Virus record (IMG/VR): IMGVR_UViG_3300033064_000890
Coordinates: 1 to 26,254 of that record
Reading direction: 5' to 3' (one strand)
Source of the DNA: a virus
DNA: 26,254 bases
The notes below the pieces were generated by a model. That model was not told where the DNA came from. It saw nothing but the letters and a program-made list of their open reading frames with translations, and ran no database searches. Position numbers and translations under genes: made by a program. Shown here piece after piece: positions 1,313 through 13,844 of this stretch (positions are counted from its first letter, which is position 1; every line of letters starts with the position of its first letter).

Positions 1313-2275
1313 ATACTGACTATCAGAATTATATAGCTCTCTCCCGCTACTCACGGTACATCCCAAGTGAGCAGCGAAGGGAGAGGTGGGAGGAAACAGT
1401 TACAAGATACTGTGATTTCTGGAAGGATAAACATCCTGACAGTTTCCCATATGAGGAGGTAAAACAATCTATCAGTTCTCTAAAGGTTATGCCCTCCATG
1501 AGGGCTTTGATGACAGCAGGTAAGGCGTTAGACAGAGACAATGTAGCTGGTTATAACTGTAGCTATATGGCTGTAGATAACCAGAGGTGTTTTGATGAAG
1601 CGTTGTACCTACTGATGTGTGGTGTTGGTGTTGGTTACAGTGTAGAGAGGCAGTTCATATCTAAGCTTCCGGTAGTGTCTGAAAGCTTTTACCCATCCGA
1701 TACGGTTATCTCAGTTAGGGATAGTCGTATTGGTTGGGCTTCTGCACTTCGTGAGCTTATCTCTCTGCTCTACCAAGGACAGGTTCCCAAGTGGGATGTG
1801 TCTAAGGTTCGTCCTTCGGGTGTTCCTTTGAAAACCTTTGGTGGTCGTAGCTCTGGACCTCAGCCTCTTGTTGATGTGTTCAATTACTTTGTAGCTACCT
1901 TCAAGGGTTCAGCGGGACGCAAGCTAAATAGTCTGGAGGTTAACGACCTGATGTGTAAGATCTCAATGTCTGTGGTTAGTGGCGGTGTTAGAAGGTCAGC
2001 TTGTATATGTCTGACTAACCTGTCTGACCTTCGTATGCGGGACGCTAAGTCTGGACAGTGGTACATAGAGAAACCTGAAAGGTCTCTTGCTAACATCTCT
2101 GTTGCATACACTGAGAAGCCTGACATAGGGCAGTTCATGCAGGAGTGGCTGTCTTTGTATAATAGTAAGGCAGGAGAGAGGGGGATATTCAATAGGGTTG
2201 CTGCCATAAAGAAGGTAGAAAATTATGGTAAAAGGAAGGTAGAACCTATTGAAGAAGCAGGTGGTACAAATCCGT
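1309..2275 (+). CDS. nrdJ: Class II ribonucleotide reductase NrdJ, exon 1
   Basis: N-terminal 322 codons plus the first base of codon 323 of an adenosylcobalamin-dependent ribonucleotide reductase, which reduces ribonucleoside triphosphates to deoxyribonucleotides for replication. Recognisable pieces are PSMRALMTAG (residues 62-71), AGYNCSYMAVD with the redox cysteine C84, GGVRRSA, ERGIFNR, and GGTNP at the exon end. The next residues of the family motif NPCGEI are missing here: without splicing the frame runs LISLAA and stops at 2295. Joining base 2275 to 3113 restores NPCGEI and gives one continuous 629-residue protein. I chose ATG 1309 because it makes a 4-base ATGA overlap with the upstream stop; a TTG at 1303 is in frame but less likely. 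Domain pattern and length resemble the monomeric RTPR type. Confidence 0.93.
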
Positions 2276-3112
2276 TAATTTCACTAGCGGCATAAGGTAG
2301 AGATATCTTATGAAAATTTTCCTAAAAACGGTGAACATCCTTTAAGGACAATACCGTGCTAACTCAGTATAATGAGGTGCGTAACGACTATGGATAAAAA
2401 ACTTTTGACTAAATACATTTCAGCTTTCATGTTGGGTGACGGCTGTCTCCGTATCTTTAAGAATGGGGGAAAGAATGCTGCCTATAGTTTTTCTCAAGTA
2501 GATAAACATAAAGAGTATACTGACTTTCAGGATAAAATTATTTCTCAGGTCACTGGTGTTACAGTTAGACACTATGACCCTTCTTGTAAAGACGGGATAA
2601 ACAGACAGGGTTACTATAAACTTGAAAGTAGATGCCATCCGTTTCTTACTACTATTTATTCAAGGTGGTATAACAACGGTAGAAAAACTATTTCCCTTCA
2701 TGACTTAAAACAGTTTGATTGGGAGACAGCAGCTATATGGTATATGGATGACGGTTATATTCTTAACTCATCCCTTCCATCACACAATGGAAATGTGTTT
2801 CTTTGCACTGATGGTTTCTCTGAGGCTGAAGTAACAATGCTTCAGAAGATTATATTCAAATCTCTTGGAGTGTCCTTTGATGTTATTAAAAGAGGATACA
2901 AAAAAGATGGGACACGGATATATAGGTTGCGTGCAAAGCATGGTGAACAGGCTACTACGTTTCTTAACGGAGTATCGCCATTCATCTTTGAGTCTTTTAA
3001 GTATAAACTCCGTACGGAAAACCCCACAAATAAAGTGGGTGATGATATAGTCTGTACCACAGTGAAAGCTGTGGAGAAAGACAGAGATGGTCTTTCCTTG
3101 TAACACAATTAG
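2276..3112 (+). mobile_element. Group I intron in nrdJ, encoding a LAGLIDADG endonuclease
   Basis: Self-splicing intron of 837 nt. The 5' exon ends in U (2275) and the intron ends in G (3112), as group I introns require. P1 pairs exon CCGU (2272-2275) with GCGG (2287-2290) and ends in the conserved U-G wobble. P2 is CATAAG/CTTATG (2291-2296/2307-2312). P4 is ACGGT/ACCGT (2328-2332/2353-2357). P6 and P6a include GC/GC and CTCA/TGAG (2358-2380). P7 is GACTAT in an R-like GTAACGACTATGG (2386-2391) with ATAGTC in an S-like GATATAGTCTG (3047-3052). P9 is CCACAG/CTGTGG (3057-3062/3069-3074), and a further hairpin is GAAAGAC/GTCTTTC (3076-3082/3090-3096). The endonuclease ORF lies between the two P7 strands. 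P3 and P8 are less clear to me. Splicing restores the reading frame across the NrdJ active-site motif. Confidence 0.92.
2390..3103 (+). CDS. LAGLIDADG homing endonuclease of the nrdJ intron
   Basis: A site-specific DNA endonuclease that would cut intronless nrdJ alleles and so spread the intron. Two LAGLIDADG motifs are visible: ISAFMLGDGCL (residues 10-20, acidic residue D17) and AIWYMDDGYI (about 115-124, acidic residue D121). This makes it a single-chain, two-motif enzyme, probably of the LAGLIDADG_2 type. The usual C-terminal FxxxKYKL-like end is at about residues 204-208, followed by roughly 30 extra residues that read through the intron's 3' core (P7, P9) and stop 9 bases before the splice site. 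I chose ATG 2390 because GAGG (2374-2377) lies about 12 bases upstream and the LAGLIDADG domain starts at once; an in-frame ATG at 2372 is possible. The chosen ATG lies inside the 5' strand of P7. Confidence 0.9.
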   Translation: MDKKLLTKYISAFMLGDGCLRIFKNGGKNAAYSFSQVDKHKEYTDFQDKIISQVTGVTVRHYDPSCKDGINRQGYYKLESRCHPFLTTIYSRWYNNGRKTISLHDLKQFDWETAAIWYMDDGYILNSSLPSHNGNVFLCTDGFSEAEVTMLQKIIFKSLGVSFDVIKRGYKKDGTRIYRLRAKHGEQATTFLNGVSPFIFESFKYKLRTENPTNKVGDDIVCTTVKAVEKDRDGLSL

Positions 3113-4035
3113 GTGGTGAAATTGTTCTTCGTTCTTGTTCTTTCTGTAATCTTACTGAGGTAGTAGTAAGGAACACCGACACTGTAGGTGACCTGCTACA
3201 CAAGGTAGAGGTAGCTGCTATACTTGGAACCTTTCAGGCTACCCTTACAGACTTCAGGTATCTTAGGTCTGTGTGGTCTACTAACACTGAGGAAGAGAGA
3301 CTGCTTGGTGTAAGCTTGACAGGGTTGATGGATCATCCTATGTTCAACAGTGTTGAGAATATGGTAGAGGCTGCTGAAGTCCTTGATGTTATGCGTAATG
3401 TTGTTGTAAGGACTAACGCAGAGTGGGCGGAGAAGCTAGGGATAAACCCAGCAGCTGCAACTACTACCATCAAACCTAGCGGTACAGTATCACAGCTAGT
3501 TGATAGTAGCTCTGGTATACACCCTAGGTATAGCAAGTACTACATTCGTAGGGTAAGGAATGATAAGAAGGACCCCTTGTCTTCCTTCCTTATTTCTCAG
3601 GGTGTGCCGTATGAGGAAGATGTACATAATAAAGATATGTATGTCTTCAGTTTCCCTATGGCTGCTCCTGAAGGGGCTCGTACCACAGAAGAAGTATCTG
3701 CTATTGAGCAGCTACATAGGTATCTGTTGTATAACGAGTACTGGTCTGAGCATTCTATCTCTATCACTGTCTATGTTAAAGAACATGAGTGGTTGAAGGT
3801 TGGTGCTTGGGTGTATCAAAACTTTGACAAGCTGAATGGTGTGTCCTTTCTTCCGCACTCTGACCACATCTATAAACAAGCACCTTATGAATCTATAGAT
3901 GAGGAAGAGTTTATAAGATGTAGTGAAGAGATGCCTAAGATAGACTGGAACGCATTCAATGTTAAAGAGTACGAGGATGTAACTGCTGGTATAAAGGAGT
4001 TTGCCTGTACAGCAGGAGGCTGTGAGATGGTTTAA
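3113..4035 (+). CDS. nrdJ: Class II ribonucleotide reductase NrdJ, exon 2
   Basis: C-terminal part of the reductase, starting with the last two bases of the codon for the catalytic cysteine. After splicing the sequence reads NPCGEIVLRSCSFCNLTE. C323 is the thiyl-radical cysteine, E325 the catalytic glutamate and C334 the second redox cysteine. The +2 and +11 spacings equal those of C408, E410 and C419 in the Lactobacillus enzyme. Further family landmarks are EERLLGVSLTGLMDHP, TTTIKPSGTVSQLVDSSSG and HSISITVYV. The C-terminal shuttle pair is C621 and C626 in ACTAGGCEMV, which matches the CxxxxC spacing used to pass electrons to the active site. At 629 residues in total it is shorter than the roughly 740-residue Lactobacillus enzyme. 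An in-frame ATG that could suggest a separate gene lies well inside the conserved domain. Confidence 0.93.
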
Positions 4036-13758: not shown

Positions 13759-13831
13759 GCCGCCTTAGCTTTAACGGTAGAGCAACGGTTTTGTAAACCG
13801 AAGGTTGGGGGTTCAAGTCCCTCAGGTGGCT
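13759..13831 (+). tRNA. tRNA-Thr (anticodon UGU)
   Basis: A 73-nt cloverleaf. The acceptor stem pairs GCCGCCT with AGGTGGC (one G-U). The D-arm is GCTT/GAGC with loop TAACGGTA. The anticodon arm is ACGGT, loop TTTGTAA, ACCGA, with an A-A mismatch at the stem base. The variable loop is AGGTT and the T-arm GGGGG, TTCAAGT, CCCTC. Positions 34-36 are TGT, reading ACA threonine codons. The discriminator base is T, and CCA is not encoded (TCAG follows), so host enzymes must add it. It sits alone between the scaffold and capsid genes. ACA is common in most genes here. Confidence 0.9.
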
Positions 13832-13844
13832 CAGAAGCAAAAAG

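Follow-up and report, generated by a model that had tools for sequence, protein, structure and literature searches.

In a virus record of 26,254 bases from IMG/VR (IMGVR_UViG_3300033064_000890; the whole stretch is referred to as the window), the nrdJ gene for a class II ribonucleotide reductase (RNR) is interrupted by an insert of 837 nucleotides (nt). Comparison of frames and alleles confirms that the insert lies in phase 1 of the codon for Cys323, the predicted equivalent of the thiyl-radical residue Cys408 of the Lactobacillus enzyme. We are highly confident that it is a mobile group I intron, on the evidence of its boundaries, phase, predicted fold, open reading frame (ORF), a natural empty site, repeated insertion at the same nucleotide, and conflicting trees. 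Read from the ORF list, the gene content of the window is that of a T7-like podovirus. The parts of the interrupted gene are:

1309–2275, + strand: nrdJ exon 1, residues 1–322 and base 1 of Cys323 (tblastn against 1193 phage records, Pfam RNR domains)
2275, + strand: 5' splice site; the terminal U of exon 1 is base 1 of the Cys323 codon TGT (2275 and 3113–3114)
3113–4035, + strand: nrdJ exon 2, from base 2 of Cys323 to the stop codon (frame join, Pfam, alignment to 1L1L)

The nrdJ frame is open from 1309 to 2295 and continues from 3113 to its end at 4035. Exon 1 ends with AAT CCG T and exon 2 begins with GT GGT GAA ATT; joining 2275 to 3113 yields a single frame of 1890 nt, coding for 629 amino acids plus stop, with the motif NPCGEI, which is absent when the join is moved by one base and restored only at this position. 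Read through without splicing, the frame terminates as NPLISLAA at the stop codon TAA (2293–2295), as an earlier note based on the letters of the window had stated. Alignment to PDB entry 1L1L places C323, E325 and C334 on C408, E410 and C419 of the Lactobacillus enzyme, so that the radical cysteine, a glutamate at +2 and a redox cysteine at +11, as in class II RNRs, are all present and the assignment and spacing given in that note hold; PF21995, the RNR-II insertion domain, was also matched. An IMG/VR contig (L018) encodes an uninterrupted nrdJ of 97.3% protein identity, reading AAC CCC TGC GGT GAG ATC at the junction. It lacks exactly positions 2276–3112 of the window and is collinear elsewhere through nrdJ. 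Because this near-identical allele is uninterrupted, the intron boundaries are fixed, and the gene identity, boundaries and phase proposed earlier, as well as the suggested comparison with intronless nrdJ, were borne out.

Within and around the insert, the following features were assigned:

2276–3112, + strand: group I intron, 837 nt (empty site in L018, covariation, Rfam halves)
2272–2290, + strand: P1, CCGU 2272–2275 with guide GCGG 2287–2290 (10/10 paired; double changes in 3/4 pairs)
2291–2299 with 2304–2312, + strand: P2 (double changes in 7/9 pairs)
2317–2322, + strand: P3 5' strand UUUUCC, partner 3016–3021 (double changes in 5/6 pairs)
2328–2332 with 2353–2357, + strand: P4 (core alignment)
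2338–2340 with 2346–2348, + strand: P5 (core alignment; P4–P5 span 2328–2357)
2363–2365 with 2374–2376, + strand: P6a (covariation)
2386–2391, + strand: P7 5' strand GACUAU (same in all 10 introns)
2390–3103, + strand: LAGLIDADG_2 homing endonuclease ORF, 237 amino acids (PF03161, 1.3e-22; start common to relatives)
3016–3021, + strand: P3 3' strand GGAAAA, within the ORF (covariation)
3023–3027 with 3035–3039, + strand: P8, within the ORF (covariation)
3047–3052, + strand: P7 3' strand AUAGUC, within the ORF (covariation count, Rfam alignment)
3057–3063 with 3068–3074, + strand: P9, within the ORF (double changes in 6/7 pairs)
3076–3082 with 3090–3096, + strand: P9.1, within the ORF (covariation count)
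3112, + strand: terminal guanosine (omega G), 3' splice site (G in all relatives)

Covariation was counted over 55 proposed pairs of the named structure in ten related introns, whose cores were aligned after excision of the ORF. Paired cells made up 94.1% of the total; double-change cells numbered 123, as compared to 39 in a shuffled control, which leaves the relatedness of the introns in, and 14–30 in a slid control, which takes it out. The corresponding covariation scores were 0.629, 0.200 and ≤0.157. Covariation was strong in P1, P2, P3, P5, P6a, P8, P9 and P9.1, while P4 was nearly and P7 wholly invariant; near-invariant P4 and P7 together with covarying P3, P6a and P8 make up a group I core, P6a being the part of P6 that was scored. 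P1 changes along with the exon (CCGU/GCGG, GCUU/GAGC, CUGU/GCAG) and keeps its exon-terminal U·G pair in all ten introns, and P3 covaries across the ORF insertion, its partner strand lying past the ORF entry point. Covariation thus sustains the group I identity which the earlier note had recognized from P1 with its terminal U·G, the two P7 strands and the final G. Phage IA introns carry helices P7.1 and P7.2 between P7 and P3'. The ORF of the window intron starts at this very place, where no such helix could be established; membership in subgroup IA is likely, but not established.

Several observations weigh against the group I intron interpretation. An Rfam search, named in the earlier note as a check, recovered the core with RF00028, albeit as two halves flanking the ORF. 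With 29.6 bits (E = 2e-5) and 24.2 bits (E = 9e-4), neither half reaches the gathering score of 50, since the 0.7-kb ORF splits the core. At the gathering threshold the window returned a tRNA alone, and the halves appeared in a relaxed search. The gathering score is, however, a detection threshold and not a defining trait of group I introns, and relatives in nrdJ with the ORF outside the core reach 83.6 (L015) and 79.2 bits (L016). Moreover, P6 is short, and P10 is weak, a by-eye search having given no pairing consistent across relatives. The nrdJ genes of the window and L018 differ in 111 of 1890 bases; a 30-nt stretch at the junction holds 6 of these differences where 1.8 would be expected, but 30 of 1860 windows show an equally high count, so that the excess is weakly suggestive of co-conversion. 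In L001, whose RNR is about 46% identical to that of the window, the junction has letter-identical flanks (AAATCCGT before and GTGGTGAAATT after it), which would fit short flanks moving with the intron but is not proof of it.

Splicing, cutting, homing and the mutual exclusion of splicing and translation are inferred from the sequence, which leaves some room for a defective intron or a gene in pieces, with nrdJ dead or made as two separate halves like nrdA of Aeromonas phage Aeh1. Genes-in-pieces RNRs have indeed been reported in phages (PMC3653736). We nevertheless regard this explanation as improbable: the core helices are all intact, with covariation, the exons are under strong purifying selection relative to L018 (nonsynonymous divergence dN 0.014, synonymous divergence dS 0.26), and a gene in two halves would have no radical-cysteine codon, as this codon exists after the join alone.

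The earlier description of the insert as a group I intron stands but was incomplete, the LAGLIDADG_2 endonuclease having gone unmentioned. Its likely start, ATG at 2390, lies within P7, is common to most relatives examined and is preceded by a Shine-Dalgarno-like GAGGUG from 2374, where the 3' strand of P6a also begins; a longer in-frame start is found at 2372. The frame crosses P3', P8, P7', P9 and P9.1 and ends past P9.1. The ORF is intact, and the aspartates of both LAGLIDADG motifs, D17 and D121, are invariant in nine relatives. Between the window and L001, the body of the endonuclease is under purifying selection (dN 0.22, dS saturated), in contrast to its 30-residue tail over the ribozyme (dN 0.48, dS 0.41). 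Since the commonest enzymes of phage group I introns are of the GIY-YIG, HNH, PD-(D/E)xK and EDxHD types (PMC3984707), LAGLIDADG represents a less usual choice.

Whereas the earlier note had implied an exceptional site, the insertion is recurrent. A pattern combining the end of the exon, the start of the intron and the guide matched 43 viral contigs, with RNR flanks in 26 and this LAGLIDADG_2 family in 18 of the 26; the remaining 17, not in RNR genes, were attributed to chance. The 26 public contigs, which include a few near-duplicates and some matches at contig ends with one flank read, have this exon/intron boundary in common, in RNR genes whose protein identity falls as low as about 23–30%. 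Relatives of the endonuclease occupy several functional sites in RNR genes: the class II radical cysteine (L001, L003, L004, L041, L050, L055, and probably L002), the C419-equivalent codon (L005), the motif GEP/GF (L037–L039, L056), the position immediately behind the radical cysteine of class I (L013), and nrdB (L012, L040); more distant ones sit in non-RNR genes. A DNA search of the phage collection returned short core matches alone. The trees of endonuclease and RNR conflict with good support, as expected of a homing element: identities are 74% for the endonuclease versus 46% for RNR exon 2 in L001/L231, and 57% for RNR exon 2 versus 30% for the endonuclease in L235. Both an intronless allele (L018) and horizontal spread are thus in evidence.

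A second, ORF-less intron lineage occupies the same nucleotide in the nrdJ genes of Roseobacter phage CRP-118 (OR420741) and of L056. These two introns are related to each other, without detectable sequence similarity to the window intron. The CRP-118 intron, at exactly the same insertion point (CCG T/GC), measures 172 nt, and the nrdJ of this cultured phage is annotated merely as two RNR genes. In the nrdJ of L056 (about 2350–3475), an intron at GEP/GF bears a LAGLIDADG ORF and the ORF-less intron sits at the radical cysteine; in that of L041, a second group I intron (1896–2144; RF00028, 54.8 bits) precedes the one at the radical cysteine. In L015 (1445–1694; MN988507) and L016 (1475–1685; MK613349), a group I intron immediately follows the nrdJ codon that corresponds to redox-active C419; the annotation shows split RNR genes in both, and calls one intron ORF a sigma-factor decoy. 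In Nodularia phage vB_NpeS-2AV2 (KU230356; L182, 175–3624), the RNR is a single frame of 1149 amino acids with an insert that runs from CFTGDMRL to HIAHN and falls precisely where the Pro of NPCGEI would meet the radical Cys (SNP/C). This mobile element at the same codon is an apparent intein, which differs in acting by protein splicing and in standing before the codon, so that the radical cysteine would serve as the +1 residue. By these comparisons, a single codon has received an apparent intein as well as group I introns of at least two unrelated lineages.

As the window is a metagenomic virus record, a mobile sequence might have been misjoined into nrdJ during assembly, but such a chimera is very unlikely, being refuted by the nucleotide-exact recurrence of the arrangement in many independent assemblies and by the same insertion point in a cultured phage. 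Despite the apparent intein at this very codon in 2AV2, translation of the window insert in frame and its excision from the protein is hardly credible, given the in-frame TAA at 2293–2295, the lack of a continuous open frame through the insert, and an endonuclease in another frame with its own start.

Among phage RNR genes, group I introns are known from T4 nrdB and nrdD, Twort nrdE, and SPbeta nrdE/nrdF, two of the Twort introns being near functionally important residues (PMC3653736). The T4, Twort and SPbeta introns reside in class I or III genes and, in the cases of known type, carry HNH or GIY-YIG enzymes; the window intron, by contrast, encodes a LAGLIDADG_2 enzyme and splits the very codon for the radical cysteine in a class II gene. 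Closer in position, nrdE of Staphylococcus phage SEP9 (KF929199) and nrdA of Pseudomonas phage SPA01 (OP875100) each have a group I intron that immediately follows the codon of the class I radical cysteine (SNLC/). The SPA01 intron encodes an endonuclease of the same family as the window's, but is inserted in phase 0, two nucleotides downstream; the SEP9 endonuclease does not match that family. A cyanobacterial RNR gene with a group I intron (Meng et al. 2007) is cited in PMC12702839; the gene is bacterial, and the Anabaena enzyme is B12-dependent. The site of this intron was not located: a generic class II query matched other RNRs, and a second query gave no interrupted relative among the matches listed. 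A search of the open-access literature found no paper on introns in the radical-cysteine codon, which is not proof of absence. As the earlier note also stated, both inteins and group I introns favour conserved sites (PMC2814812). Together with the frequency of split phage RNRs (PMC3653736) and more than 100 group I introns curated in RNRdb (PMC2795772), this preference explains the case described here. Phage RNR genes are thus familiar hosts of mobile group I introns; unusual here are the repeated use of one nucleotide and the placing of the start codon within P7.

In the mechanism we propose, the nrdJ transcript would fold into the group I core, with the guide GCGG pairing to the exon end CCGU in P1. 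Guanosine would attack after U2275, the freed exon would then attack after G3112, and rejoining of the exons (T/GT) would restore the radical cysteine. During mixed infections the endonuclease may cut intronless nrdJ across the stretch coding for NPCGE, a target that would persist because its amino acids cannot change, and repair of the cut allele would copy in the intron along with short flanks. Because the endonuclease starts in P7 and its frame runs through P3', P8, P7', P9 and P9.1, one RNA molecule could be either spliced or translated into endonuclease, never both at once. Phage deoxyribonucleotide supply would depend on splicing, although the host's own RNR could contribute. The broader idea of a specialised LAGLIDADG group I intron lineage that homes on the codon for the radical cysteine in viral class II RNRs, has spread to enzymes of about 23–30% identity and makes splicing and endonuclease synthesis exclusive through its P7-embedded start is put forward tentatively, with nearly as much for it as against it.

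Elsewhere in the window, a tRNA-Thr gene (anticodon TGT; 13759–13832) lies between phage structural genes. In a genome of a cyanobacterial order (G248; L183), nrdJ shares 54% identity with the phage enzyme, a much closer match than in the other genomes searched; it possibly stems from a prophage or a contaminating phage contig.

The nrdJ intron offers a nucleotide-exact case of mobile introns settling where the protein cannot change. The large number of RNR backgrounds, together with naturally empty alleles and versions devoid of the ORF, makes it possible to test target specificity, co-conversion and the choice between splicing and endonuclease synthesis, and some viral nrdJ genes annotated as two broken genes are in fact intact but interrupted.
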